The translations under genes and the position numbers were made by a program. Below are positions 3,346 to 24,255 of a DNA stretch of 29,181 nucleotides, in pieces. Numbering within the stretch: the stretch's first letter is position 1; every line of letters starts with the position of its first letter. The notes below the pieces were generated by a model. It ran no database searches and was not told the origin of the DNA. It saw only the letters and a list, made by a program, of their open reading frames with translations. Origin of the DNA: Candidatus Schekmanbacteria bacterium (lineage in GTDB: Bacteria > CSSED10-310 > JACPHN01); contig JACPHN010000198.1 in assembly GCA_016188575.1 (NCBI GenBank), positions 1 through 29,181 of the forward strand, written 5' to 3'.

Positions 3346-3374
3346 TTGACGGTGGCACCAAGAGGCTCTATGCT
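3346..3374 (+). promoter_or_regulatory. Sigma-70-type promoter of the SBP-OmpA/VWA operon
   Basis: TTGACG (3346-3351) and TATGCT (3369-3374) are separated by exactly 17 bases. This is the best -35/-10 pair in the gap between the TPR gene and the operon. Transcription would begin near 3381, giving a leader of about 95 bases. The remaining gap upstream (3241-3345) holds only a weak GC hairpin (3278-3298) without a T tract. Confidence 0.6.
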
Positions 3375-3476
3375 AGGCGCAGCGCTTCAAGCATCGTGGC
3401 CCCATAGCCGCTTTGATTCGGTGTGCGAGCGCCCTGGCACTCTGATTGCTACGGTTCCTTTTGGGAGAGAAGCGAC

Positions 3477-5219
3477 ATGAGATCTCTTGGGATGCCTCGC
3501 ACACTTGCAGCCACGCTGCTTCTCGTCGCACTTGCCGCGCCAGCGGGCCGGCTCGCTCTGGCAAAGCCCTCCTACGTCGAGCCGAGCAAGCCATTCAGCA
3601 AGCTCGTCAAGGCAAAGTCCCGGGCCTTTTCAGGAAAGACCCCCATTCCTGTGCCGCTCATTACCTGGGGCGGCGACGTCGCCACCGTCCTGGCGAACGG
3701 CGGCAGAGAGACCGCGGCCGGGTCAATCTTCGCTGCTGAAGGGCTGAAGCTGGCCCTCAACAGAGAGGACGACTTCGTCAAGCAGGTAGAATCCTATCTG
3801 AGCGGCGAGACGCCCTACCTTCGGGGCACACTTGGCATGATCAACATGGCCTCCGAGGCGTTGTCCGCGGACGCCGGCGCCCGCCCGGTGGCGGTGTACC
3901 AGATGACGTGGTCCACGGGAGGCGATGCCCTGGTGGTGCGCGGCGACATCAAGAAGGCCAGCGACCTCAAGGGGAAGACGATCGCCCTGCAGCAATACGG
4001 GCCCCACGTGGATTACATGGACACGATTCTTCGCGATGCCGGGATCTCCTGGAGCGAGGTCGGAGTGCGCTGGCTCAAGGAGCTCACCCTCCCCGGCTAT
4101 GACACCGCCGGCAGCGCCGTCGACCCGGCCTCGGCATTCCGCGAGGACAAGACCATCGATGCGGCCTTTGTAATCATCCCCGACGCGCTCGCGTTGACCT
4201 CGGGAGGAACCGTGGGAACGGGTGCAGAGGATTCCGTCAAAGGGGCTCGCATCCTGCTGTCCACAAAGACCGCGAGCCGCGTTATCGCCGACATCTACGC
4301 CGTCCGCAAGGACTATCTCGAAAAGAACCGGGGCGATGTCGAAAAATTTGTCCGTGGTCTCCTGAAGGCGCAGGAAAAGCTTGCAGACCTCGTGAAGCGG
4401 AAATCGAGCAACCAGACCGAGTATCAGCAAATGCTGGGCAATGCCGCCGACCTCCTCTTCGATACGCCGCAGGCGACCAGCGACGTGGAGGGATTGATCG
4501 CCGATTGCACGTTTGTTGGGGCATCGGGCAATGTCAGCTTCTTCGCGGATCCAAAGGAGCTGCGCAGCTTTTCCAAGCTCACCGAGACGATTCAGAAATC
4601 GCTCGTGGAGCAGAAATTTCTGACGGCTGCCAAGGGGCTGGACAGTGCGGGCTGGGATTGGGCGAGCCTGATGGGAGGGACGGCCGTAGCGCCGAAGAAG
4701 GAAGAGAAGCGCTTCGATACCCAGAAAGTGGAGAAGAAACTCGCCCAGCAAGCACCCGGCGCCACTCCCAGTGAGGCTCTTTTTTCTTTCGAGATCTACT
4801 TCAAGCCGAACCAGGACGACTTCTCCGCGGCGGAATACAAGAAGGACTTTGACCGCGCGCTGGAGCTCTCGCGGACCTACGCGGGCGCGATTCTCCAGAT
4901 CGTCGGCCACACCGATCCCATGAAATACCTGCGTGCAAGAAAAGACGGTCAGCCTGAGGCCACCGTCATGCAATTGGCACAGTCGGCCAAGAACCTGAGC
5001 CTTGCCAGGGCCAACAGCGTCCGCAAGAGCCTGATCGAGTACGCCCAAGGCCAGGCAGTCTCCGTAGATTCCAGCCAGTTCGTCGTTACCGGCGCGGGAG
5101 TCGATCAGCCGAAGCATTCCTCTCCGGCTTCCGAAGCCGAGTGGCGAGACAACATGCGTGTCGTGTTCCAGCTCATCAATGTGGAGGCTGAGCTCGAATC
5201 GTTTGCACCGCTCAACTGA
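3477..5219 (+). CDS. Periplasmic substrate-binding domain fused to OmpA-like domain (1)
   Basis: A 580-residue protein; ATG 3477 follows GGGAGA at 3463-3468. Residues 1-29 are a signal peptide. Residues about 55-405 resemble an NMT1/SsuA/NrtA-type ABC substrate-binding fold: ITWGGD near the start, the mid-domain motif DLKGKTIALQQYGPHVDY, then DAAFVIIPDA. A charged linker (about 410-435) leads to an OmpA C-terminal domain (about 440-570). This has FKPNQDDFS, IVGHTDP and LSLARANSVRKSL, and so keeps the Asp and Arg that bind diaminopimelate in OmpA. It should therefore hold a ligand-binding domain on the peptidoglycan. I recall similar fusions annotated as 'phosphate ABC transporter substrate-binding/OmpA family protein'; the ligand is not evident here. 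It is the first gene of a four-gene operon with no permease or ATPase. Confidence 0.85.
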   Translation: MRSLGMPRTLAATLLLVALAAPAGRLALAKPSYVEPSKPFSKLVKAKSRAFSGKTPIPVPLITWGGDVATVLANGGRETAAGSIFAAEGLKLALNREDDFVKQVESYLSGETPYLRGTLGMINMASEALSADAGARPVAVYQMTWSTGGDALVVRGDIKKASDLKGKTIALQQYGPHVDYMDTILRDAGISWSEVGVRWLKELTLPGYDTAGSAVDPASAFREDKTIDAAFVIIPDALALTSGGTVGTGAEDSVKGARILLSTKTASRVIADIYAVRKDYLEKNRGDVEKFVRGLLKAQEKLADLVKRKSSNQTEYQQMLGNAADLLFDTPQATSDVEGLIADCTFVGASGNVSFFADPKELRSFSKLTETIQKSLVEQKFLTAAKGLDSAGWDWASLMGGTAVAPKKEEKRFDTQKVEKKLAQQAPGATPSEALFSFEIYFKPNQDDFSAAEYKKDFDRALELSRTYAGAILQIVGHTDPMKYLRARKDGQPEATVMQLAQSAKNLSLARANSVRKSLIEYAQGQAVSVDSSQFVVTGAGVDQPKHSSPASEAEWRDNMRVVFQLINVEAELESFAPLN

Positions 5220-5234
5220 TGGGAGGGTGATGCC

Positions 5235-6035
5235 ATGAAATGCGCATCGCACCGTCTCGCGTTCGGGACGCTTCGAGCACGGTTTCTGCTCGGCGCGTTG
5301 CTCGCGGTATCCGCGGCCTGTTCCGGACCCGGTGATCAGGCAGGTACGCCGCCGGGACCGCGGTCAGCTCCGCCCGGTTCCGCCGTCGCCCCCACCACCG
5401 CCATGGTGCCGGAGGAGGACATCGAGCCGGTGGCCGAGGTCGAGGCAAAACTGGCGCGGAACTTCTACTTCGTCCTCGACGGTAGTGGCTCGATGTCAGC
5501 CGGTGACTGCGCCGGACGGCTCGGCACCAAGATTGCCGCTGCGGTGTGGGCCAGCGAACAGTTTCTCCAGTCCGTGGAGCCGGGCGCAAACGTTGGCCTC
5601 TTCGTTTTCGATCGCGCCGGCGATTCCGAGCGGGTGCCGCTCGGTGGAGACCGCGCGGCATTCTTGGGCGCGCTCCGGGAGACGGTTGCCGACGGCAAGA
5701 CCCCACTGGCGTCCGCGATCCGCGCGGGTGGCGCCGCCTTGAGCAAGCAGCGCAAGCGGCAGCTCGGTTACGGCGAGTATCACCTGATCGTCGTCACCGA
5801 TGGCCAGGCAACGGATGACAAGCCGGGTGGCACCCTGGCGCGCGCCGTGCGCGAGGCAGGGGCTGCGGGCACGCTGATCTCGACGATCGGGTTTTGCCTC
5901 GGTCGCGACCACGACCTCCGCGAGGGATCCTATGCTTACCGGACCGCGGATGACCCGGAGCAGCTCAGGGAAGCGCTTCGCGCCGTCACTGCCGAGACCG
6001 AATCCTACGACGTAAGCTCCTTCGAAGGTCTCTAA
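5235..6035 (+). CDS. Secreted VWA-domain protein, possible lipoprotein
   Basis: A 266-residue protein; ATG 5235 follows GGGAGG at 5221-5226, 15 bases after the previous stop. The N-terminus is an export signal ending in VSAAC, so Cys29 could be lipidated, although the residue at -3 is Ser instead of the usual Leu. A Pro/Gly/Ala-rich linker (about 30-70) precedes a von Willebrand factor A domain (about 75-255). The metal-ion-dependent adhesion site is complete: Asp82, Ser84 and Ser86 in LDGSGSM, Thr156 in GKTPLAS, and Asp189 in VVTDGQ. Such domains bind protein ligands through a bound Mg or Mn ion. Its place between two substrate-binding/OmpA proteins suggests it docks one or both of them. The partner is inferred, not shown. 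Confidence 0.87.
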   Translation: MKCASHRLAFGTLRARFLLGALLAVSAACSGPGDQAGTPPGPRSAPPGSAVAPTTAMVPEEDIEPVAEVEAKLARNFYFVLDGSGSMSAGDCAGRLGTKIAAAVWASEQFLQSVEPGANVGLFVFDRAGDSERVPLGGDRAAFLGALRETVADGKTPLASAIRAGGAALSKQRKRQLGYGEYHLIVVTDGQATDDKPGGTLARAVREAGAAGTLISTIGFCLGRDHDLREGSYAYRTADDPEQLREALRAVTAETESYDVSSFEGL

Positions 6036-6036
6036 C

Positions 6037-7599
6037 ATGGACCGCTCGGCGACGATCATCGGGGCGATTCTTCTCGTACTCGTCGGGATCGCGGCGCTGG
6101 TTGGCATCAAGCTCGGCCTTTCCTATTTCAGCGAGCAGGAGCGACTCACGACGTCCGACGCTGCCAAGATAAAGGAGACCATTCGCATCGCGGGTGACAA
6201 CTGGGTCGGATACTTCGGGTTGCATTCGAGCGAGTTTCAGCGGCGCATGCGCAGTCTGGGAATCGGCGTGGAGTGGATCGACGACGGTGCGCGCTACGAC
6301 GAGCGCATGGAGAAGCTCGCGGCGGGAGAATACGAGCTTGTAGTCGCAACCATCGACTCGTACCTGGTGAATGCGGCGCGCTGGAAGTATCCGGGGGTCA
6401 TCGTCGCCGTTATTGATGAGTCCAAGGGCGGCGATGCCATCGTCGCCAAGGAGGAGCTCAAGTCGATCAACGACCTGGGCAACCCGGGGGTCAAGATCGC
6501 CCTGACTCCAAGCTCTCCCAGTGACTTCCTCCTCAAGGCGGCCTCCGCGCACTTCGCCCTGGTGAGGCTCGTCGGCAGCACGGATTGGCGAGTCGAGACC
6601 GCCGGGTCCGAGGAGGCGCGGAAGCTTTTGGCGCGCGGCACCGTACAGGCCGCCGTGCTCTGGGAGCCGGACGTGTCGCTGGCGCTCGCCGAGCCCGGGG
6701 TCCACAAGCTCCTCGGCACTGAGAAGACCAAGAGATTGATCGTTGACGTGCTCGTGGCCCATCGCAAGCTGATTGCGGAGAAACCTGAGCTACTCGGGAC
6801 CTTTGTCGGCGAGTATTTCAAAGCGATGCGAGCGTACACGGTAGAGAGGGAGAAGCTGGCCGAGGAGCTGGAGGACGTGACGGGTCTAAAAAGCGATGCA
6901 GTGGTGCGGATGATGGATGGAGTGGCATGGGCGACGTTGGAGGAAAACGGCCGGCAATGGTTTGGCATCGCGACGCCGGGCCTGGCGGCCGAGGAGGGGT
7001 TGGTCGACGCCATCAACTCGACCGTCAACATCCTCAAGGATCACGGCGATTTCACCGCCGACCCGGTGTCCGGCAACGCCTACGAGCTCACCTACTCGCG
7101 TATTATCGAGGACCTGCTTCAGGTGGCCGCTGCGAAGGAGGTCGAATCGCGGTTTACCGTTGCCGGCTCGTCACCTCAACCGTCCAAGGTCGATTTCCCA
7201 CCGCTCAGCGAGGAGGAATGGGCGAAAATGCACGTCGTGGGCCGCATGAAGATCCGGCCGGTCGTCTTTCAGAGCGGCTACAGCGTCGTCACCGTCGGTG
7301 GCAAGGGCGAGGTCGACAAGGCGGTCGAGGCGCTTGCCCACTATCCGGAATTTCGTCTGCTGATCAAGGGGCACACCGCGCCGGGCGGAGAGGAGGAGAG
7401 CAATCGCGCGTTGTCACTCGATCGCGCCGACGCCGTCCGGCGATATCTGACCGAAATCCACGACATTGACCCGGATCGCATTCGTACCGCGGGGGTCGGA
7501 GGTGCCGAACCCCTGCCCAAGGAGGCGGGGGAGTCGCTTCGCGCGTACCGCGTGCGCCAGCCGCGCGTGGAGTTCTACTTGATGGAACAGGCGAAATAG
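6037..7599 (+). CDS. Membrane-anchored substrate-binding domain fused to OmpA-like domain (2)
   Basis: A 520-residue protein whose ATG lies one base after the VWA gene's stop, so translation is probably coupled. Residues 5-30 form an uncleaved-looking membrane anchor, unlike the cleavable signal of the first fusion. Residues about 45-370 are a substrate-binding fold (IRIAGDNWVGYFGLHSSEF, VVATIDSYLVNAARW, GVKIALTPSSPSDFLL, AAVLWEPDVSLAL). The last group of residues is typical of NMT1-like proteins. Residues about 400-515 are an OmpA-like domain (LLIKGHTAPGG, LSLDRADAVRRYL, GVGGAEPLP). Here the Asp of the usual HTD motif is Ala (codon 7378-7380), while the later Arg is kept, so peptidoglycan binding may be weak or altered. 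The two fusions are clearly diverged and are not a recent duplication. Confidence 0.85.
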   Translation: MDRSATIIGAILLVLVGIAALVGIKLGLSYFSEQERLTTSDAAKIKETIRIAGDNWVGYFGLHSSEFQRRMRSLGIGVEWIDDGARYDERMEKLAAGEYELVVATIDSYLVNAARWKYPGVIVAVIDESKGGDAIVAKEELKSINDLGNPGVKIALTPSSPSDFLLKAASAHFALVRLVGSTDWRVETAGSEEARKLLARGTVQAAVLWEPDVSLALAEPGVHKLLGTEKTKRLIVDVLVAHRKLIAEKPELLGTFVGEYFKAMRAYTVEREKLAEELEDVTGLKSDAVVRMMDGVAWATLEENGRQWFGIATPGLAAEEGLVDAINSTVNILKDHGDFTADPVSGNAYELTYSRIIEDLLQVAAAKEVESRFTVAGSSPQPSKVDFPPLSEEEWAKMHVVGRMKIRPVVFQSGYSVVTVGGKGEVDKAVEALAHYPEFRLLIKGHTAPGGEEESNRALSLDRADAVRRYLTEIHDIDPDRIRTAGVGGAEPLPKEAGESLRAYRVRQPRVEFYLMEQAK

Positions 7600-7621
7600 G
7601 GATCTTGGAGGCACGCCGGAC

Positions 7622-8557
7622 GTGGCGAAGGCCGAGCTCACGAGCGCGGAAGCTGACCGCATTGCCGGCAATCGCCAGGAGTTGCGCAAGGCCTTGCTCC
7701 GCGAAGTCATCGTGGGCAGCCTTGGCCATCCCGCGACGGTTTTTCCAACTGCCGCCGCGGCTCTGGCGGTGGCCTGGATGGTGATCTTCGAACCGTCGCT
7801 CGCGCCGTTCTTGACGGCGATTGGGCTTGGCGCGACGGCCGCCGCGTCGGCGGTGGTCAACTTCTTCTTTCGTGGCCCCAAGCTCGCGGAGAAATACGTG
7901 AAGCGGCTGGAGGCGGCGCGCCAGCGCCGTTCTGAGGAAGGCCGGCAGGCGCTGCGCAAGCGCCTCGCGGCGCTACCTGTTCCGGACGGCTTGCGCGCCT
8001 TCGACGAGCTGCTGGCCACCCACGAGCGCCTGGACGAAGCCCTCCCGATGCTGGAAGAGCAGGATCCGATGCGGGCCGTCGATGTGCGCATGTTTGGAGT
8101 GGAAGCGCGGGAACGGGGGCTCGAGTCGTTGGATCGCGCGGCCACCGCCCTGGAGCAGCTCGTCAAGGTGGACGTGGTGGCACTGCGAAAACAGGTGAGC
8201 GCAATCAACGCGACGCTGGCGAGCCGCGGCGCCGAGGGGCCGCTGTCCGCGGCGGGAGCGCGGCGGAATGCCGCCGACCGCGAGCGTCTGGCGGCGCTTC
8301 AGGCGCGGCTTGCAGCGTGCGACGAGGGCATGGCGCGCGTCTCTCAGATGATTGCAAGCGTCGAAAAAGCTACGGGGCTCATGGAGAGCACCGTCGTGAA
8401 ACTGGCCTCCGGATGCCCTACGGATCCGGAGTTTTGGAATACGATTTCCAGCGACAGTGGGAGTCTTGAAAAAAGCGATGATCTCCCGTTTAACCTACCG
8501 GATTTTGGCGTTACCAGCGAGTCGGAAGGATGCGATGCCCAGTATCACAAGGAGTGA
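7622..8557 (+). CDS. Membrane hairpin / coiled-coil protein, last gene of the operon
   Basis: A 311-residue protein; GTG 7622 follows GGAGG at 7607-7611, 22 bases after the preceding stop. Residues about 38-84 form two close hydrophobic segments (FPTAAAALAVAWMVIF and an Ala/Gly-rich stretch ending AVVNFFF). A long, charged, helical region (about 85-265) is rich in Arg, Glu, Ala and Leu and looks like coiled coil. The C-terminal 40 residues are acidic, Ser-rich and probably disordered. I do not recognise a family. A helical protein in this position recalls loci where substrate-binding/OmpA proteins sit beside TelA-type proteins, but I see no TelA signature. The predicted topology is a short membrane hairpin with a large cytoplasmic helical part. 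It may connect the periplasmic binding proteins to the cell interior. Confidence 0.75.
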   Translation: MAKAELTSAEADRIAGNRQELRKALLREVIVGSLGHPATVFPTAAAALAVAWMVIFEPSLAPFLTAIGLGATAAASAVVNFFFRGPKLAEKYVKRLEAARQRRSEEGRQALRKRLAALPVPDGLRAFDELLATHERLDEALPMLEEQDPMRAVDVRMFGVEARERGLESLDRAATALEQLVKVDVVALRKQVSAINATLASRGAEGPLSAAGARRNAADRERLAALQARLAACDEGMARVSQMIASVEKATGLMESTVVKLASGCPTDPEFWNTISSDSGSLEKSDDLPFNLPDFGVTSESEGCDAQYHKE

Positions 8558-8683
8558 ATCAGGGGGCTCCCGGGATATGGCGCTCGTAAGCAGAATATGT
8601 CAAAATGGGTGCCGCCACGATGCCACACTTGCCTCAGCGCACCGAGCTGACATGGCGGCAGCCTGCGAACACCGGAGATGTCT

Positions 8684-10027
8684 ATGAACAGAATAACCGA
8701 TTTCGCCGTTTCAGCACTCGTTCCATTGTGCCGCCGTTCATTCCGCGCGGGTGCAGCGATCTCTGCGCTGGCGCTTTGCTTGGGCGTAGGTGCCGCCTCG
8801 GCGCAGGTTTTTTCAGACGATGTTCGGGTCAACGATCTCGCGCCTGGGGATCAATCCGCCCCGGCAATCGCCGTAAGCAAGGAGGGTATCCTTCATGTCG
8901 CCTGGACCGACACGCGGGAAGGCGACACGAACGTCTATTCCGCGGCCAGTACCGACGGCGGCCGGACGTTCGGCGAGAATCGGCGCGCCAATGACAATGG
9001 TGCAGGCGAGCAATCGTCACCCACCCTTGTGGTTGCCGAGGATGGCACCGTTTTCGTAGCATGGGTCGATGATCGCGCCGGTTCCCTCGACGTGTATCTG
9101 GGCTCCAGCGCCGACGGTGGCGTCAGCTTTTCCGAGAGCGCACGGGCAAACTTTCGGACGCAAGGCGATCAGACGGAACCGACAATGGCCGTCGCCACGG
9201 ACGGCGATCTGTACGTTTCCTGGGCCGACAGGCGCACCGATGACGCGGACATCTACGTCACCCGTAGCACCGATGGCGGCGACACCTTTTCATTGGCGAC
9301 GCGTGCGAACCAAAAGACGAGCGGAAACCAGACCGCGCCATCCATTTTGGCGGTTGCGGGGGGTACAACCTTCGCCGCCTGGACTGACGATCGCCTCGGC
9401 ACCAAGGACGTGTACCTTGCCAGGAGCACTGACGGTGGCGAGATCTTTTCAAGCGCCGTAAGCATCAGTGACGACACCGGTGACGATCAGTCTCAGGTAC
9501 GGCTCGCCTTGCCTCAGGACGGCAATGGCACCATCCTGTACGCGACGTGGACGGATACCCGCAGCGGGAGCGAGGACATCTACTTCGGGAAGTCTACGGA
9601 CGGAGGCGCCACCTTCGGTGATTCCGTTCGCGTCAATGACTTCGGGAACACGGCGGCGCAGAATCATTCGTCGCTTGCCGTCGACAAGGATGGCGTCATC
9701 CACGTCGCCTGGGCCGACAACAAGAAGGGAACTTCGGACATCTACTACGCGCTGAGCACCGACGGCGGGCAGACCTTTTCGGCGGACGTCCGCGTCAACG
9801 TCGACTTCGGCGACGAGCAAGCTGCGCCAGCAGTCGCTCTGGACAGGGGTGGTCGCGTCTTTGTCGTCTGGCAGGACAACCGCGCGGGCTCATCTCAGGA
9901 CATCTACTTGTCGGGAGACCATTACCTCGGACCGTTGGTTCCGGCGGGGTCCGGGATCGGGCTGGCGGCAGCCGCGCTGGCTGTCGGCCTGTGCGCTCGC
10001 TTCCAGGGACGCCGGCGACAGGAGTGA
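8684..10027 (+). CDS. Secreted seven-bladed beta-propeller with Asp-box repeats and C-terminal anchor
   Basis: A 447-residue protein. Of two nearby ATGs, the one at 8684 is preferred because GGAG (8674-8677) lies six bases upstream; it would abut the ATG at 8678. A long signal peptide ends at about residue 40 (AASAQ). Seven repeats of about 55-60 residues follow. Each holds an AW-x-D-x-R-x-G turn and a D-I/V-Y strand, and six end in an Asp-box (STDGG-x-TF), as in BNR/sialidase-like propellers. No sialidase arginine triad is evident, so this is more likely a binding or structural propeller than an enzyme. The C-terminus has a hydrophobic segment (IGLAAAALAVGLCA) followed by GRRRQE, the layout of PEP-CTERM/MYXO-CTERM-like sorting tails, but I see no diagnostic motif before it. 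It stands alone between the operon upstream and the convergent glutaredoxin gene. Confidence 0.82.
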   Translation: MNRITDFAVSALVPLCRRSFRAGAAISALALCLGVGAASAQVFSDDVRVNDLAPGDQSAPAIAVSKEGILHVAWTDTREGDTNVYSAASTDGGRTFGENRRANDNGAGEQSSPTLVVAEDGTVFVAWVDDRAGSLDVYLGSSADGGVSFSESARANFRTQGDQTEPTMAVATDGDLYVSWADRRTDDADIYVTRSTDGGDTFSLATRANQKTSGNQTAPSILAVAGGTTFAAWTDDRLGTKDVYLARSTDGGEIFSSAVSISDDTGDDQSQVRLALPQDGNGTILYATWTDTRSGSEDIYFGKSTDGGATFGDSVRVNDFGNTAAQNHSSLAVDKDGVIHVAWADNKKGTSDIYYALSTDGGQTFSADVRVNVDFGDEQAAPAVALDRGGRVFVVWQDNRAGSSQDIYLSGDHYLGPLVPAGSGIGLAAAALAVGLCARFQGRRRQE

Positions 10028-10847: not shown

Positions 10848-12143
10848 TCATTGCGCCAACTGCAACACAACCAGGGTGCGGTCATCTTGCTGCCGCGCGC
10901 CGCCCGCATGGGCGCTGACCGCGCGGACGACGTGTGCGAGGATCATGGGCGCCGGGCTTGTCCGCACTTCTGCGGCCAGAGAGCCGATTCGCTCCTCCCC
11001 GAATTCGTCATCCTCGGCGTTGGTTGCCTCGGAGAATCCATCGGTGAATAGCGCCAGAACCGACCCCGGCGAGATGCGGACCAGCTCTTCAGAATACGAC
11101 AGGTCCGGCAGGATCCCAAGCGGCATGCCGCCCGCCTCCAGTCTGCCAACCGCAGTTTCGCCGTCGTCGGGACGAATGAGAAACGGCGGGTTGTGGCCGG
11201 CGTTGCAGTAGACGAGCTCTCCTCGACTGGGCCGCAGCAGGCCGAGAAATGCAGTAACATAGCGCCCGCTTCCGGCTGATTCCCACAGCAGAGCACTGAG
11301 CCTGGCGGCGAGCCGCGCAGGCGAGGTCGCCTCTTCCTGCAGAGCGTGATAGCTGGCACGCAAGCTCGCCATGAGCAGGGCCGCGGGCATGCCCTTTCCC
11401 GCGACGTCAGCGACGATGAAAGCCAGTTCGCCCTCGCGTCGCACAAAATCATAATAGTCACCGCCGACCTCACGGCACATCTCCAGCAAGCCCGCGACGG
11501 CAACGGCACCGTCTTGCGGGATCTTGCCAATCAGACCCTGCTGAATGTCACGCGCCAGCGCCAGCTCGCGCTCCAATCTCTGGATACGCACCGTTTCCTT
11601 CACCAGGCGGGCGTTTTCCAGGGCAATCATCGCCTGATCCGCAAGGATCGCCAGTAGTTGCAGCTCGCCTGCACCGTACGCCTGCCCGGTCCAGCGCTTT
11701 CCAAGCAGGAGCAGCCCCAGGGTGGCGTCGCTGGCCTGCATCGGAACAACGACGCCGATATCGTGTCGTGCCAGCACCTCGGCCGCGGACGAAAGTTGGG
11801 CGTCGGCCGCAAGCTCGGCGACCAGCCGCGGCCCCTCGCGGGTGTCCCACTGGCGGAGCAACGCTTCCGCGGCCCGCTCGAGCTCGCCAGATGCCTCCGG
11901 CCGTGAGCCGCGCGCAAAGACCAGCACCGGCTTCGACCCGCCCTGCGCGGTAATCACGGCCAGCCGACTGACCATCATCTGCCCCATCACGGCAAGTGAC
12001 AGCGTCTGCAGAACGACGTCCGCGTCGAGGGACGCGCTCAGACGCCGCGTCGTCTCAAAAACCGTGCGCATCTTGATGGCCATGAGACCCAACTCGTTCA
12101 ACCCGGCCTGGTCGCTACCGCTCGATATCTGTTCATTTCGCAT
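10848..12143 (-). CDS. GAF-domain PP2C/SpoIIE-type serine phosphatase (RsbU-like)
   Basis: A 431-residue protein. Two tandem ATGs exist (12146 and 12143); AAGGG is spaced six bases from the second, which I chose. Residues about 25-185 look like a GAF sensor domain (RLSASLDADVVLQTLSL near its start, LLAILADQAMIALENARLV at its end). A connecting helix (LERELALARDIQQGLIGKIP) leads to the SpoIIE/RsbU phosphatase domain (about 210-430). The metal-binding acidic motifs are GGDYYD, ADVAGKGMPAALLMA, LFTDGFSEA and QQDDRTL. The domain order is that of cytoplasmic activators of partner-switching pathways, which dephosphorylate a STAS anti-anti-sigma protein. The gene overlaps the end of the RsbW-like gene by 11 bases, so the two are translationally coupled. 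The GAF ligand is unknown. Confidence 0.9.
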   Translation of the reverse strand: MRNEQISSGSDQAGLNELGLMAIKMRTVFETTRRLSASLDADVVLQTLSLAVMGQMMVSRLAVITAQGGSKPVLVFARGSRPEASGELERAAEALLRQWDTREGPRLVAELAADAQLSSAAEVLARHDIGVVVPMQASDATLGLLLLGKRWTGQAYGAGELQLLAILADQAMIALENARLVKETVRIQRLERELALARDIQQGLIGKIPQDGAVAVAGLLEMCREVGGDYYDFVRREGELAFIVADVAGKGMPAALLMASLRASYHALQEEATSPARLAARLSALLWESAGSGRYVTAFLGLLRPSRGELVYCNAGHNPPFLIRPDDGETAVGRLEAGGMPLGILPDLSYSEELVRISPGSVLALFTDGFSEATNAEDDEFGEERIGSLAAEVRTSPAPMILAHVVRAVSAHAGGARQQDDRTLVVLQLAQ

Positions 12144-12582
12144 CATGGACCCTTTTCACCATGCGCACCGCGTTCCCGCTCACACCCTTTGTCCATTCGA
12201 CTTCGTCGAGCAGCGTCCTCATCAAATGCACGCCCAGGCCGCCGACCTTGAACACAGCAAGATGCTGTTTGAGGTCCTTGGGCGGATGCGACGCCGGATC
12301 GAAGCCGACGCCCCTGTCCCGCAGGATCACCTCTATCTCATCGGCACAGCACGTGATATCGACCTCGATCTCCTGCGCCGCGTCGCCGCCACAGGAGTGC
12401 AGCATCACGTTCGCGGCCGCCTCGTCGACCGCGAGTTGGACCTTGGCCGCCTCCGCGGCGGGAAACCCGACGCGCCCACAAAGCTCGACGACGTGCGCGC
12501 GAATGCGCTCCAAGTTGATGGTGTCGCACGCGAGGACTACCGACAGGTGTTCAACACAGTCGCTATTTGGCGAGCTCGTCAT
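12133..12582 (-). CDS. RsbW-type serine kinase / anti-sigma factor
   Basis: A 149-residue cytoplasmic protein of the HATPase_c_2 group. ATG 12582 is preferred over ATG 12594 because GGAG lies six bases upstream. The ATP-binding motifs are visible: the N box in LAVDEAAANVMLHS, the G1 box in LRDRGVGFDP, and the G2 region in VGGLGVHLMRTLLDEVEW. Proteins of this family bind and inhibit a sigma factor or other target and phosphorylate a STAS-domain antagonist. The gene overlaps the preceding membrane phosphatase gene by 20 bases and the following GAF phosphatase gene by 11 bases. It is thus translated in step with two enzymes that would oppose its kinase activity. No STAS protein or sigma factor is encoded in the window. 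Confidence 0.9.
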   Translation of the reverse strand: MTSSPNSDCVEHLSVVLACDTINLERIRAHVVELCGRVGFPAAEAAKVQLAVDEAAANVMLHSCGGDAAQEIEVDITCCADEIEVILRDRGVGFDPASHPPKDLKQHLAVFKVGGLGVHLMRTLLDEVEWTKGVSGNAVRMVKRVHDAK

Positions 12583-15025
12583 GGTGCACTCCATCCCAGG
12601 ACAGCATCAGGAGCGTTACGTCATCGTGTTGGGCGCCTGCGCCTCGATACCTGTCGAGCTCGTCCATGATCCGCTTCTCGAGCTCGTCGAGCGGCAAACT
12701 GGCCGACCTGCCCAAAAGCGCACGCAGCCGGTCCTCGCCAAACTCTTCTCGTGCCGCGTTGAAATGTTCCGTCACGCCATCGGTGTAGAGGAGAACAACA
12801 TCGCCGGGCGCGAGCTGGAGCTCCACCTCTGAGGTCGCCTGGCGAAACATGGGCGAGGGCACGAGGCCAAGTCCCAATCCCTGCGCGTGTGGCACCGCGT
12901 CGTAGACCGCGCCGCGGCGAAGCAGCAGCAGCGGGAGATGGCCAGCCCGCACAAACCGTAGCACCCCGTGCCGCGTGTCCAAAGTACAATAGAGAGACGT
13001 GATGAACATCCCCTTGCCGAGCCGCCTTCGCAACAGGTCGTTGGCGCGCGCCAGAACTTCCTTGGGAGAAGTGAGCAGCGAGCCGAACGCCTGCAAGATT
13101 CCCATTGCCTGAGCCATGTAGAAAGCGGCCGTCATGCCCTTGCCCGAGACATCTCCGATCACCAGCCCAATATGCCCATCATTCCCCTGGACGACATCGT
13201 AGAAATCTCCACCCACAATTTGTGCGGGACGACACAGTGCGCGCAGAGTTATTCCGGCCACCGCAGGCAGCTCGGCGGGTAGGAGCGCGAGCTGAACGTC
13301 CCGCGCGATGTCGAGCTCACGCTGGAGAAGCTCCCGTTGGCGCCGGCTACGCGCCTTTTCCGTCAGCAGGTCGTCGAGGTCTGCCGCGCTCTCGGGGGAG
13401 AGCCGACATCGCAACCCCCAGGCACACAGGGCGCTCAACAGGATGGCGCCGGCCACACCAGGCCAGGTCAGAGGCATGGACACGGACGCGGACTCGGGCA
13501 TCACATACGCGGTCAGGCCGTAGCTGACGTAGGCGACTGCGCAGGTCAAGAAACCGAATTGCAGAAGAACCCCGGCCAGGACCACGGAAATCCCCAGAGA
13601 TGCGGGAACGATCAACCATGGCGGGGTGATGGCCGAGTTTGCCCACAGCGGCGGAGTCAGCGCGAGCACTGCGGTGATCAGCAAGGCGACCAGCGGCCTT
13701 TTCAGAAGCGCCGTGAGCGCCCCTTGGAGGAACATGTGAAAAGTGCCCACCGTACCGCCCAGGCACAGCAGCAGCGCTCCAAACGCGTGCAGTTTCGGCG
13801 CCGGCGACTCCGCGAGCGCTTCGCAAATGAAGGGCTGGACGGGAAGTGAAATGCCCAGCGCGATCAGGGCTGACAGACCGGTGGTAACGGCGGTTCCGAG
13901 GGCGGCACCGTACGCAGCTCCGCGCAGCAGCGGACCGGCCAGGCGCCGCGAGCTGAACCGCCCGTTGATCAACGCCGTGTAGCTCGCGAACATGCCCGGT
14001 CGCGTGTCGCTCCACATGGCCTCGCCCGCCGCAAATAACGCCCAGAAGAGCAAGGCCGCGATTGGAAACACGAGCACGAAGTTCACCACCGCCATCGAGG
14101 TCGCCGCGGCGGCGTCTTGCCCGTAATACATCGATGCCTGCATGCTCTGCCACTGCTGGATCACAAAGAAGATCAGGGGCAACGTTGCAAACAGTGTCCA
14201 GCGTCCCGGCGCGAGCTCCTCGGCGCGCCATTTGCGAAAGGCCACGATCACCGCCACGAGCATCAAGAGGCCAGTCACTCCAATGCGGGCGTTAACGGCA
14301 AGTTGTGGATACTTCAGGTCGTCACTCAGTGTCTTTTCGAGGTCCTTGTCGAGCTTGAGGTCAATCGTGTAGCCATCGAATACCTCGCCCGCCAGGACCG
14401 CTTCGAGAACCAGGCGAATGCCGGGCCAGCTCGGCCGGGTCGCCTCCCAGTGAATGACCTGGTCCACGCGATTCTGTGACGGCATCGGCGACACCGTCTG
14501 GAAGACGAACGGAGCCAGGTCCAGGCCGAGATCGCGCAGCGCCGACTCGGCTCTCAGACGCGCGGCCTCGCGCTCGAGCGGCGGCGCCCCACTGCCGCGA
14601 TCGGAGCGCACCCTGCGCAGGGAGACAACCGCTCCATCCGCCGCCTGGACCTCGACGTCATATTGCTCGGCGCTACTTTGCGAGCGGTACCGCACGGCGT
14701 AAACCAGACCTCGCGCCACCAAGCCGCGCCGCAAGAGCTCGCCGCGCGGCTCGCCCAGGCCGGCCAGGTAGTTGACCTGCGTGGACGGCAGCGCCCTGGT
14801 GACCCTGGACACGCCAAAGTCGCCGGCGGACACGCCGAACCCCCGCTGCAGCGCCGCATCCGCGGCATCGCCTGCCGCCGCCGGGGAAAGCGCCACGGGA
14901 ACGAATTGGTTGCCGGAGGTTCGCGATCCCAAGGTGAACGCGATACCAATGGCCACTACTACCAGCGCCAGCAGGAGCGCCGTCTCTCGCCCCGAGGGGA
15001 ATTCTATGGATCTTGCCGCCACCAC
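12563..15025 (-). CDS. Multi-pass membrane SpoIIE-type phosphatase with extracytoplasmic sensor region
   Basis: An 820-residue protein. The GTG at 15025 is chosen because GGAG (complement of 15033-15036) is seven bases upstream; an earlier in-frame ATG at 15139 would add 38 Arg-rich residues covering the divergent promoter region. Residues about 13-33 are a membrane segment. An extracytoplasmic region (about 35-230) contains PepSY-like stretches (AEQYDVEVQAADGAVVSLRR). Eight or nine hydrophobic segments follow (about 235-525). A helical linker (RQRELLQRELDIARDVQLALLP) leads to a complete SpoIIE/PP2C domain (about 565-815) with GGDFYD, GDVSGKGMTAAFYMA, LLYTDGVTEH and QHDDVTLL. It would transmit an envelope signal by dephosphorylating a STAS protein. 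It is the first gene of the cassette and overlaps the kinase gene by 20 bases. Confidence 0.88.
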   Translation of the reverse strand: MVAARSIEFPSGRETALLLALVVVAIGIAFTLGSRTSGNQFVPVALSPAAAGDAADAALQRGFGVSAGDFGVSRVTRALPSTQVNYLAGLGEPRGELLRRGLVARGLVYAVRYRSQSSAEQYDVEVQAADGAVVSLRRVRSDRGSGAPPLEREAARLRAESALRDLGLDLAPFVFQTVSPMPSQNRVDQVIHWEATRPSWPGIRLVLEAVLAGEVFDGYTIDLKLDKDLEKTLSDDLKYPQLAVNARIGVTGLLMLVAVIVAFRKWRAEELAPGRWTLFATLPLIFFVIQQWQSMQASMYYGQDAAAATSMAVVNFVLVFPIAALLFWALFAAGEAMWSDTRPGMFASYTALINGRFSSRRLAGPLLRGAAYGAALGTAVTTGLSALIALGISLPVQPFICEALAESPAPKLHAFGALLLCLGGTVGTFHMFLQGALTALLKRPLVALLITAVLALTPPLWANSAITPPWLIVPASLGISVVLAGVLLQFGFLTCAVAYVSYGLTAYVMPESASVSMPLTWPGVAGAILLSALCAWGLRCRLSPESAADLDDLLTEKARSRRQRELLQRELDIARDVQLALLPAELPAVAGITLRALCRPAQIVGGDFYDVVQGNDGHIGLVIGDVSGKGMTAAFYMAQAMGILQAFGSLLTSPKEVLARANDLLRRRLGKGMFITSLYCTLDTRHGVLRFVRAGHLPLLLLRRGAVYDAVPHAQGLGLGLVPSPMFRQATSEVELQLAPGDVVLLYTDGVTEHFNAAREEFGEDRLRALLGRSASLPLDELEKRIMDELDRYRGAGAQHDDVTLLMLSWDGVHHDELAK

Positions 15026-15064
15026 TCCGTTTCTCCGACCAGGCCTCCGGCGGAACAGGAATCG

Positions 15065-15073
15065 AGCATAGCA
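15065..15073 (-). promoter_or_regulatory. Extended -10 promoter for the phosphatase-kinase cassette
   Basis: On the minus strand the sequence is TGC-TATGCT, placing a transcription start near 15058 and a leader of about 33 bases before the GTG at 15025. There is no convincing -35. The divergent glycosidase gene begins at 15160. I see no equally good promoter for it in the 134-base interval. Confidence 0.4.
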
Positions 15074-15159
15074 CTCGTCCTCGGCGGGCGCTACAGTCCG
15101 CTGTCGGCGATACGCCTCTCCAGCTCGGGACCCGTTCACGCATCAGAAAGGACAGCCAC

Positions 15160-20598: not shown

Positions 20599-23500
20599 TC
20601 AGCGCCTCGGCGCACTCGTGCCGGCCGCTTCCGCGGCCTGGTCGACATCCTCGCGGCGCAAGCTCTCGAGTGCCGCGGCCAGCAGCTCCATTGCGATCGG
20701 TCCTGCCCGATGTCCGCCGAAGCCACCGTGTTCCAGCAGCACGGTCACCGCGACGCGCGGCGTCTCCACCGGTGCGAACGCCGTGAACCAGGCGTGCGAA
20801 GGGAGGCCCTCGACCTCCGCCGTTCCCGTCTTGGCGGCGAAGGGAAGCCACTGCGCTTCGTGTTTCGGACCCGCCAAGGAAAAGCGGGCGCCGACCTGGG
20901 CCGGACGCCTCGACAACACGCTCGGCGCCGCGGTCCCGCTTGCTGCGGCCGCCACCATGCCGCCGGCGACGCGGCGCGCGGCGAGCTTCGAAAGCACCCG
21001 CCCCAGAGCCTGCTCGTGCATCTCCAGATACGTTGCATCCGACCTTTCCAGGCGGCGCAGAAGCTGCGGAGCCACCAGCTCACCGCCTCTGGCGATGGTC
21101 GCGGTGACCAGCAGCATCTGCAGCGGGGTCACCTCCACCAGGGTCTGCCCTACGGCTGCGCGCGACAGTAGCAGGGGATGTTCGCGCAAATACGTGTCCT
21201 GCACGGGAGCGACGGTTCCCGTGTTCGCCCCTGCGCACGCCGGCAGCGCCGCGGAACCCGCGACACTGTGACACGTCGCGAAATGCGAGGGAACCGCTGC
21301 GAGATCGATTTCGCCGGGAAGCGGGAGCAGTGGGAAAGCGCGGCCAAAACCGAGCCTCCGCGCGATCCGCGTCAGCTCGTCGCCGATCACCACCCCCATG
21401 GTGGCGAAGTAGACATTGCACGATTGGGCCAGCGCCTCGCGAAGCGCGATCGCGCCGTGGCGAAACGAGTCGTTCCCGGCGGCAACCTGGTAGTCGCGAA
21501 TCCCTAGCGCAGGATCAGTCCCCTGGCACGAAACCGGTGAACGATCGGCCCCCACCTCGGCCGCCGCCGCCGCGGTCACCAGCTTGAAGACCGACCCCGG
21601 CGGATAGAGACCGTGAATGGCCCGGTTCTTCTTGAGCTGCAGCTCGGGGTCGCGAAACTGGCGGCCCCACGGTTCGCTCCCCGCTGCCGCCGGGTTGAAG
21701 GACGGGACGCTGGCGACGGCGAGCAGCTCCCCGGTGCGAACATCCATCACCAGCGCTGCAGCTCCGGCGTGGGGAGGTCGAGCCGGGTCATGGAGCTGGT
21801 TGAGCGCCTCGTCGAGCAACCGCATCGCGCGCGCCTGAAGCTCGGCATCAATCGTCAAGGTTACTTGATATGGAGCCCTTTGCCGGCGCGCCTGCGCAGG
21901 CGTTCCATCGCCGCGCACGCTGGCGGCAAGACGCCGCAGGCGCGACAGCACTGCTGTTACGGCGACGCGCGGCGGTAAGATTCCAGTCTCGATTCGTCGA
22001 ATCAGCGCCGGCAAGTCGTTTTCGAGGAAGAGCGGGGCGCCGAAGCGGCTGTGGCCGAGAACGGGGAAGAGACTCCACGCGAACGGGTACCGGCGGGTGT
22101 CGTGACTGTCCGTCACCGCAACGACGCGACCCCGGCGGTCCCGAACGGAAAACGCCGGCCGGGCGATGGTCCGTGGATTCGCTCTGCCCACCGCGGATGA
22201 AGCGAGCACGGGCTTTCCCTCGCGGACCTCGAACGCATCCGCCAGGGCGCGCAGCCGGCGCAGATCCGCCCGGACGAGCTGCCGTTGCCCCGCGGGGAGG
22301 AGCTCCGCCACAGGCTCCATCTTGTCCGCATCGAACCGGACTCTACCGGCGCGAACGCTGTAGACGCCGCCATCGGCGAGAGCCTGCAGCGCCTCGGCGA
22401 GCGGGCGATCCTGGAATGGGCGCCGTGCAGTGCTTGCGGAGAGCAGCGTCATCTGTGCTCCAAGCCACAAGAAGCAAAGCGCAAGCATCGCGTGTGTCGC
22501 CAGGCGCGCATGCCTGAGCCGGCGGTTGACCTGGACCCACCGCTCCGGTTGCGCCTCCTCCCCACCGTGATACACAAACGAAAGCTGCACGAGCACCCCA
22601 ATGCAGTACATTGTGAGAATCGCCGTCATTCCACCGCGCGAGACAAACGGCAGCGGCACCCCGGTCAGCGGCAGCAGGCCGGTGCTGCCGGCGGCAATGA
22701 CGGCGACCTGTGCTGCCAACAACAGCGTCACCGACGTTGCCAGGTGCTTGCGAAAGGGTTCCACCTCGCGGACCGCGATGTCGAAGCCGCGGTGCAGCAT
22801 GCAGGCATACAACCCGAGCACGGCGCCCGCACCGACAAGCCCCAGCTCTTCGGCGATCGTGACGAGAGCAAAATCGGAGTCGGCGTTTGGCACCGTGTAG
22901 GGCATTCCGCGCGCCAGCCCCGCGCCCCACAGGCCGCCCTCGGCCAGCGACCACCTCGCCAGCGCCAGCGTCTCGCTGTGGGCGAATGGGTCCAGCCAGG
23001 AGGCCAGGCGATGGTAGGCTCGGAACGGCTGCTCCAGCCACAGCACCACGGCTCCCATGACCGGAGCGCCGACAACGACCAGCACGGGTAGGAGCAGGTC
23101 GCCGAGACCGACAACGGCGACGGCCACGAGCAGCGCGCCACACAGGAGAACAAATCCCACGTCGCCCGTCAGAAGCCCCGCGGCACCCACCGCGAGGAGC
23201 ACGAGCAAGTGGGGAATCGTCCCCGCCGGAGCGCAGCAATAGGTGTGCTGGCGCTGACCGTTGTCGGAATCGCGTCGCCGGCGCTGTTCGAGGTCGGCGA
23301 GGTAGTAGGCGGCGTAGTAGGCGAGCAGGACTTTGGCGATCTCCACGATCTGGACGTCTTTCCCGGCGATCGTCAAGCTGAGAACGGCGCCAAAACGCCT
23401 CGTGCCGGCGATCGCGGTGCCCAGAGTCAGCGCCACCGCCGCCGCCGCGAACAGGTGGTAGACGGCCACGTGGCCGATCCGTCTCCTGAAGAAAACCTGC

Positions 23501-24255
23501 AGCCACTCGTGCCGCCCGAGATAGTGTCCGGCGATGATGGCCGCGACGAGCGCCGCCGCTCCGACGGCAGTCGCAAGCGACTGTAGCAGCGGCCAGCTCA
23601 GGCAGCTTGGGAACCTCGCCGCATAGACGCGGGGGATGTCCGGAGCGAGGCGAATCAGCAGCACCACGCCGAGACCCGAGAGAAACAGGGCGAGCGGCAC
23701 GAGCACGCCATCACTGGAGCTCGGCCGCAGGCGTCGCCGCAGCGTCGCGAGCGCCGCCACCGCACCGAGAAAAGCGCCGGCGGCGACCGCCACCGCCAGG
23801 AGACTGCTACCTCCCAGCACACTGTCGAAGACGTCGACGGGGTCGCGGTGCGGCCCGCTTCCGGCCTCGGGAAGCTGCACGGACAGTCGCTCTTCGCGCT
23901 CGCCGGTCTGCACCAGAAACCCGCGTCTCCGATAGTCTTCGCCGCGCTCGAGGCCGAGGAAGCTCGCGCGCAGAGCCATGCAGGCCGCTCCCGCAACCAC
24001 GAGCGTCAGGATCGCCACGAGGAAGGTAAAGCCGACCTCCCTGCGCCCCAACGGCAGCGCCAGCCGCAGCGGAGCCGGCGCTATCCGCGTCGCCCGGACC
24101 GCCGCGAGCAAGGCGCCCACAAGCAGCACGTGAAAGAGCGGATGATAGATCCCCGCCGCCAGCGGCGGAGGCAACAGCAGCAGCAGGCAACACAGCGCTG
24201 CTGTTGCCACAGCGAGACCCGCCGCGAGCGCGATCGCCCTTTTTTGTCCACTCAT
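20599..24255 (-). CDS. Fusion of SEDS glycosyltransferase (FtsW/RodA) and class B penicillin-binding protein
   Basis: A 1218-residue protein covering peptidoglycan polymerisation and crosslinking in one chain. Residues 1-255 are extra: about six membrane segments with an extracytoplasmic insert (about 100-145). Residues about 256-565 are the SEDS domain, with ADSDFALVTIAEELGLVG (Asp461 matches the catalytic Asp of the RodA TDF motif) and TGLLPLTGVPLPFVSRGG (525-542). A membrane helix near 590-605 enters the periplasmic PBP part: a pedestal (about 615-790) and transpeptidase (about 795-1200) with Ser888 and Lys891 in PPGSVFK, Ser945-Cys-Asn947, and Lys1142 in AKTGTAE. No GT51 domain is present, so it is class B. 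All catalytic residues are intact. The upstream QPSE-like motif of SEDS proteins is altered to QIVEIAK. There is no other cell-wall gene in the window. The ribosome-binding site is weak. Confidence 0.93.
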   Translation of the reverse strand: MSGQKRAIALAAGLAVATAALCCLLLLLPPPLAAGIYHPLFHVLLVGALLAAVRATRIAPAPLRLALPLGRREVGFTFLVAILTLVVAGAACMALRASFLGLERGEDYRRRGFLVQTGEREERLSVQLPEAGSGPHRDPVDVFDSVLGGSSLLAVAVAAGAFLGAVAALATLRRRLRPSSSDGVLVPLALFLSGLGVVLLIRLAPDIPRVYAARFPSCLSWPLLQSLATAVGAAALVAAIIAGHYLGRHEWLQVFFRRRIGHVAVYHLFAAAAVALTLGTAIAGTRRFGAVLSLTIAGKDVQIVEIAKVLLAYYAAYYLADLEQRRRRDSDNGQRQHTYCCAPAGTIPHLLVLLAVGAAGLLTGDVGFVLLCGALLVAVAVVGLGDLLLPVLVVVGAPVMGAVVLWLEQPFRAYHRLASWLDPFAHSETLALARWSLAEGGLWGAGLARGMPYTVPNADSDFALVTIAEELGLVGAGAVLGLYACMLHRGFDIAVREVEPFRKHLATSVTLLLAAQVAVIAAGSTGLLPLTGVPLPFVSRGGMTAILTMYCIGVLVQLSFVYHGGEEAQPERWVQVNRRLRHARLATHAMLALCFLWLGAQMTLLSASTARRPFQDRPLAEALQALADGGVYSVRAGRVRFDADKMEPVAELLPAGQRQLVRADLRRLRALADAFEVREGKPVLASSAVGRANPRTIARPAFSVRDRRGRVVAVTDSHDTRRYPFAWSLFPVLGHSRFGAPLFLENDLPALIRRIETGILPPRVAVTAVLSRLRRLAASVRGDGTPAQARRQRAPYQVTLTIDAELQARAMRLLDEALNQLHDPARPPHAGAAALVMDVRTGELLAVASVPSFNPAAAGSEPWGRQFRDPELQLKKNRAIHGLYPPGSVFKLVTAAAAAEVGADRSPVSCQGTDPALGIRDYQVAAGNDSFRHGAIALREALAQSCNVYFATMGVVIGDELTRIARRLGFGRAFPLLPLPGEIDLAAVPSHFATCHSVAGSAALPACAGANTGTVAPVQDTYLREHPLLLSRAAVGQTLVEVTPLQMLLVTATIARGGELVAPQLLRRLERSDATYLEMHEQALGRVLSKLAARRVAGGMVAAAASGTAAPSVLSRRPAQVGARFSLAGPKHEAQWLPFAAKTGTAEVEGLPSHAWFTAFAPVETPRVAVTVLLEHGGFGGHRAGPIAMELLAAALESLRREDVDQAAEAAGTSAPRR

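Follow-up and report, generated by a model that had tools for sequence, protein, structure and literature searches.

We analysed a 29,181-nucleotide stretch of DNA from a Candidatus Schekmanbacteria genome (the window) and found that four of its genes are one half, the receptor half, of a widespread, unnamed conserved bacterial cluster. The usual order of that cluster, as given by ORF searches of the loci, is SO1-VWA-SO2-CC-(TelA or PspA-like)-SBP-permease-ATPase, where SO1 and SO2 fuse a ligand-binding domain to an OmpA domain, CC is a membrane-hairpin coiled-coil protein and SBP is a substrate-binding protein that stands with the permease and ATPase of an ABC importer. We read the whole as a trans-envelope module of receptors, importer and scaffold that would serve envelope homeostasis and that is split in the source genome, a reading to which we give a probability of about 0.5. 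The module itself is real and widely conserved and its anatomy is well supported, while for the mechanism the odds are roughly even.

The window encodes the four genes on the forward strand, packed as the earlier note had laid them out; all the ORFs were found, and the gaps SO1/VWA, VWA/SO2 and SO2/CC are 15, 1 and 22 nt. SO1 (P0001, 580 aa; 3477-5219, +) is called from an ATG with a GGGAGA-type ribosome site, whereas the longest ORF of the region begins at GTG 3423. The ORFs of the VWA protein (P0002, 266 aa; 5235-6035, +) and SO2 (P0003, 520 aa; 6037-7599, +) were confirmed, and CC (P0004, 311 aa; 7622-8557, +) has a GTG start. The promoter proposed for the group (TTGACG-N17-TATGCT; 3346-3374, +) is present as described and is the sole such match in the 8 kb between 1000 and 9000, but about one match is expected there by chance, so that a true promoter at this site is no more than plausible. 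The GC content of the four genes, 0.61-0.68 against 0.65 for the whole window, does not mark them as foreign. Directly 3' of them lies a gene for a BNR-repeat, beta-propeller-like secreted protein (8678-10027, +), which shows no sign of module membership. Elsewhere the window encodes two neighbouring SpoIIE-type phosphatases (10848-12146, −, with a GAF domain, and 12563-15139, −) and a 1218-aa ORF (20599-24255, −) in which FtsW/RodA/SpoVE (PF01098) and a penicillin-binding transpeptidase (PF00905) are joined as a natural SEDS-PBP fusion.

Searching GTDB genome contigs with an SO1 profile yielded 178 encoding places, from which 80 loci were retained; the well-flanked set consists of the 44 relatives whose contigs extend at least 9 kb downstream and 3 kb upstream of SO1. 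In these 44 loci the VWA gene is always present, SO2 is found in 43 and CC in 41, and all four genes occur together in 41. The recurrence of the four-gene order in other genomes, which the earlier note had proposed as a check, is wide. Because the gene order recurs in dozens of genomes of many phyla, it is far beyond chance. SBP adjoins in 31/44 loci, the permease in 32/44 and the ATPase in 29/44, with the whole importer trio in 28/44, leaving about one-third of well-flanked relatives without a complete adjoining trio. Importer proximity is frequent, not universal. In some loci the importer genes lie upstream of SO1, and in a single locus (L103) they are divergent. A protein of about 200 aa without a Pfam match was seen near the module at L059:19052-19660 and in seven other loci.

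The two fusions flanking the VWA gene are what the earlier note had taken them to be, ligand-binding domains joined to OmpA domains. P0001 matches NMT1 (1.4e-7) and OmpA (1.1e-6) in Pfam, and P0003 matches OmpA in Pfam (3.2e-14) and an SsuA-type binding domain in NCBIfam (8e-18, under that model's cut-off). The binding domain of SO1 spans approximately residues 53-397 and its OmpA domain residues 433-568; SO2 comprises an N-terminal membrane anchor, as predicted, an SsuA/TauA-like binding domain and an OmpA domain. The SO1 model (pLDDT 90, pTM 0.87) has TauA as the best solved relative of its binding domain (Z 26.4, rmsd 3.7 over 286 aligned residues), with SsuA, cyanobacterial NrtA, CmpA and domains of NrtC/CmpC also close. 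A MAFFT alignment of SO1, SO2 and SBP showed an S-x-G-x-D motif, one more Asp and one Pro to be invariant across all three families, each of which keeps its own paralogue-specific invariant residues elsewhere. Such shared and family-specific conservation makes decayed receptors less likely and argues against domains that no longer bind.

Both OmpA domains pass the PF00691 gathering cut-off of 27.2 (29.3 bits for P0001, 53.5 bits for P0003). In Acinetobacter OmpA an Asp and an Arg bind the diaminopimelate of peptidoglycan (PMC5974059). The SO1 OmpA domain keeps the Asp in 86/86 and the Arg in 86/86 sequences (Asp480 and Arg511 in the window), whereas in SO2 the Asp is found in 0/71 readable sequences, its place being taken by G, S, A, N or T; most SO2 sequences still have the Arg. 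In the window the GHTA of SO2 aligns to the GHTD of Acinetobacter OmpA (3td3). Most of the other OmpA-domain matches listed from the source genome retain the Asp, which serves as a rough control. The sequence counts take in near-identical plasmids and related species. The two wall anchors envisaged by the earlier note are therefore reduced to one: because SO2 has lost this single residue, on which the argument turns, SO1 alone of the two fusions is probably wall-anchored.

P0002 matches VWA_2 (5e-13), and the metal site claimed for it is indeed complete: the MIDAS residues DxSxS...T...D correspond to D82-S84-S86, T156 and D189, and the motifs are conserved in 84 aligned sequences. The protein would be exported or lipoprotein-like, and anchored, as judged from its sequence. 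The last gene likewise encodes the membrane-hairpin coiled-coil protein described before, with a transmembrane hairpin at about residues 37-82 and a long helical bundle; a hydrophobic segment near the N terminus is present in 63/66 family members, and an AlphaFold model built on 51 sequences reached pLDDT 88 and pTM 0.76. Basic residues flanking the hairpin on both sides suggest that the coiled coil is cytoplasmic. CC gave no credible Pfam or NCBIfam family match, and in fold searches Foldseek gave nothing with E below 0.08, the helical matches reaching Z 10.9 at most. Homology to PspA/Snf7 was set aside for want of sequence support (hhalign probability 0.4% against three PspA proteins of the source genome, no PF04012 match), as was assignment to XpaC, there being no Pfam match to that family.

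Pfam scans of the ORFs beside the four genes detected no ABC permease and no ATPase, and the ten further window ORFs scanned matched neither AAA+ nor any permease or ATPase family of ABC transporters. The observation that no permease or ATPase is present therefore holds beside the window genes, but both are encoded in the source genome, on contig C86, and in most well-flanked relatives. C86 carries an SBP, then a TauC/SsuC-like permease, then a TauB-like ATPase; the SBP shares 46% identity with its counterpart in the Vibrio module and scores 499 bits against TIGR03427 ('putative urea ABC transporter'; curated cut-off 333.9). Since the source genome has this trio and relatives have it adjoining, the module is split here, not transporter-free. 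A second genome of the phylum (G001) is also split, with SO1-VWA-SO2 on contig C102 and CC-PspA-like-SBP-permease-ATPase on C46. Among 290 genomes, full-length SO1 (E < 1e-150) occurs in 7 and TIGR03427 over its cut-off in 3, all of them SO1-positive (Fisher p ∼9e-6, a statistic that ignores relatedness among the 290). TIGR03427 was also over cut-off somewhere in 14 of 20 SO1-bearing genomes, a sample chosen largely for a missing or incomplete local importer. Separately, the source genome contains on contig C255 (locus L027) a second, divergent set comprising two tandem receptors, one with an OmpA domain, a permease, an ATPase and a coiled-coil protein.

The name 'urea transporter' is doubtful for the module SBP, since urea carboxylase (TIGR02712) is over cut-off in only 3/20 module-bearing genomes; the source genome has no match over that cut-off. 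Rfam found no guanidine riboswitch in 13 sources (the window, the C86 locus and 11 relatives). Guanidine or urea, weighed as the ligand, may still be bound, but neither the riboswitch scans nor the mostly absent urea carboxylase spoke for it. One genome (G304, locus L102) is unlike most carriers in that on contig C5 a complete urea carboxylase gene and a TIGR03427-type SBP lie within ∼3.3 kb of each other.

The clusters of the well-flanked loci include TelA (28/44) or a PspA-like gene (9/44), never both; 7/44 have neither. In TelA-free loci the position between CC and SBP is often filled by a gene of about 276 aa. One member of this gap-gene family matched PF04012 (PspA_IM30) with E 0.0012, under the family cut-off, and a nine-sequence profile aligned with the three PspA proteins of the source genome over 210 columns (probability 66%, E 6e-5); the sequence likeness to PspA is weak, and we take it for a lead rather than an assignment. 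In the tree of SO1 the TelA-bearing loci fall on one side of a single branch, with the window on the PspA-like side. The 28-to-9 split is one inherited difference, not many independent swaps, and because it is a single change on that tree the counts are not independent exchanges. The source genome has no TelA (PF05816) match, and no match to the module PspA-like profile in a search run without a positive control. In Bacillus an envelope-stress regulon includes TelA/YaaN and pspA; Lactococcus and Listeria have XpaC-TelA pairs that react to such stress, and TelA lies in their envelope-stress regulons (PMC3498285, PMC3139573 and PMC12791056, jointly for the three genera). Genes for various types of AAA+ ATPase are repeatedly found near the module, in raw counts: among others, a divergent AAA+ gene lies directly upstream of SO1 in about 8 or 9 loci, and an AAA+ gene follows the ABC ATPase in six PspA-type loci.

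Copies were also found on mobile elements. Three annotated Vibrio megaplasmids carry the full gene set intact. The 595-kb uncultured phage LR756511 encodes SO1, VWA, SO2, a hairpin protein at the place of CC, a PspA-like protein, SBP, permease and ATPase, and its terminase was confirmed by Pfam; PHROG phrog_2 was discarded as a terminase test, its control having matched 11/14 cellular genomes. IMG/VR gave one further viral contig with an SO1 match. Only divergent relatives of the fusion, with permease and ATPase genes nearby, occur in phage G, in Lak phages and on a 735-kb record.

The mechanism that we favour would run as follows. After export, SO1 would be fixed to peptidoglycan through its OmpA domain. 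SO2 would sit in the inner membrane by means of its N-terminal anchor, and its OmpA domain, which would lack the customary contact with peptidoglycan, may dock to a partner. The ligand of both would be a small molecule of the taurine/sulfonate/nitrate/urea class, which they would either deliver to the Tau/Nrt-type importer or signal to it. The VWA protein with its metal site may bridge the receptors or the wall. CC, crossing the inner membrane, would couple the state of the receptors or importer to a cytoplasmic membrane scaffold, either TelA or the PspA-like protein, near which an AAA+ ATPase is often encoded, such that importer and membrane would be stabilised together under envelope stress. 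Gene order and its conservation, domain content, the conserved receptor residues, the missing Asp of SO2 and the importer genes of the source genome are observations, from which we infer export, topology, docking, ligand handover, direction of signalling and the envelope-homeostasis role; the cluster probably serves envelope monitoring or repair. The core of the earlier note's reading, a trans-envelope receptor and scaffold, is retained in this scheme, consistent with the conserved receptor residues, the one fusion with intact peptidoglycan-binding residues and the predicted cytoplasmic coiled coil, but its transporter-free form and its two anchors are not. A bolder version, that this is a new trans-envelope stress system of many phyla, megaplasmids and at least one giant phage, in which wall- and inner-membrane-tethered receptors gate the importer and control a TelA/PspA-type scaffold, is possible, and we advance it tentatively.

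A rival explanation is that the cluster is an elaborate importer and nothing else, SO1 and SO2 being extra receptors, tethered to wall and membrane, that concentrate a scarce nutrient for SBP or the permease, and the VWA, CC and TelA/PspA-like proteins assembling the importer or protecting the membrane. The adjoining trio in 28/44 relatives, three homologous and well conserved receptor domains and an SBP from a family named for urea uptake all speak for it. Yet the core of eight genes includes five that fall outside classical transport and still accompany the importer; some loci (L050, L062, L067, L100 and L107) keep SO1-VWA-SO2-CC-TelA without an adjoining importer, and the genomes of L067, L092 and L100 gave no TIGR03427-type SBP over cut-off. 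We consider this explanation rather unlikely. The opposite proposal, that of the earlier note, is a transport-free ligand sensor or trap whose receptors report through VWA and CC, which would make the C86 importer unrelated. It draws on the lack of importer genes beside the four genes in the window and in a minority of relatives, and on the receptor-like regulatory domains at the C termini of cyanobacterial NrtC/CmpC, which are among the best structural matches. However, the fusions usually adjoin a Tau/Nrt-type permease and ATPase, an arrangement that the earlier note had itself named as telling against its reading, and the same importer type often co-occurs with them, source genome included. 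The claim that the binding proteins cannot serve ordinary uptake did not survive the 28/44 adjoining trios and the matching trio on C86; a transporter-free sensor was for the same reasons dropped as the leading reading, and we now regard it as improbable.

We give still less credence to a conflict module, that is, mobile-element cargo that alters the host envelope and excludes other phages or toxins. The near-complete cluster on a terminase-encoding 595-kb phage record, the intact clusters on Vibrio megaplasmids and the related, more distant genes of phage G and the Lak phages would fit such cargo, as would the role in exclusion-type competition proposed for TelA in jumbo phages (PMC7824862). 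Most copies, however, lie on contigs of bacterial genomes from many phyla, and IMG/VR added a single viral contig.

Our preferred reading, the trans-envelope receptor, importer and scaffold module, can be set against several known systems. TauABC, SsuABC, NrtABCD and CmpABCD share its binding fold (TauA, Z 26.4) and its class of permease and ATPase, and NrtC and CmpC use a receptor-like domain in regulation, but the module differs in its receptors fused to OmpA and in its VWA, CC and TelA/PspA-like partners; we know of no receptor-OmpA fusion in those systems. XpaC has a membrane-hairpin coiled-coil architecture, and in the XpaC-TelA (YaaN) pairs of Bacillus and Listeria it is encoded next to TelA, as CC is in the TelA-bearing loci, within envelope-stress regulons; those pairs lack receptors and importer, and CC has no XpaC family match. 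Also close are the operons that Ravi et al. (2024; PMC11237479, section 18) mention, in which PspA and TM-bearing Snf7-like proteins stand with AAA+, an ABC ATPase, a permease and a single PBPB-OmpA protein, and for which that section suggests membrane remodelling linked to solute transport. These resemble the module in ABC ATPase, permease, fusion, PspA-like and TM coiled-coil partners, AAA+ and the same remodelling/transport proposal; on the other side, section 18 mentions one fusion protein and no VWA, TelA, second fusion with altered OmpA or split arrangement. In the open-access literature we found no paper describing the whole module, part of the association having been noted by Ravi et al. 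SO2 homologues on Vibrio plasmids are annotated as 'phosphate ABC transporter substrate-binding/OmpA family protein', a label that is silent on function and overlooks the cluster.

Generic names such as 'urea transporter', 'phosphate-binding/OmpA' and 'toxic anion resistance' conceal one conserved cluster. If our reading is correct, this defined gene set would tie the sensing of solutes at the wall to active import and to proteins of the membrane scaffold, and would open the role of TelA and PspA-like proteins beyond the classical stress operons to direct tests.
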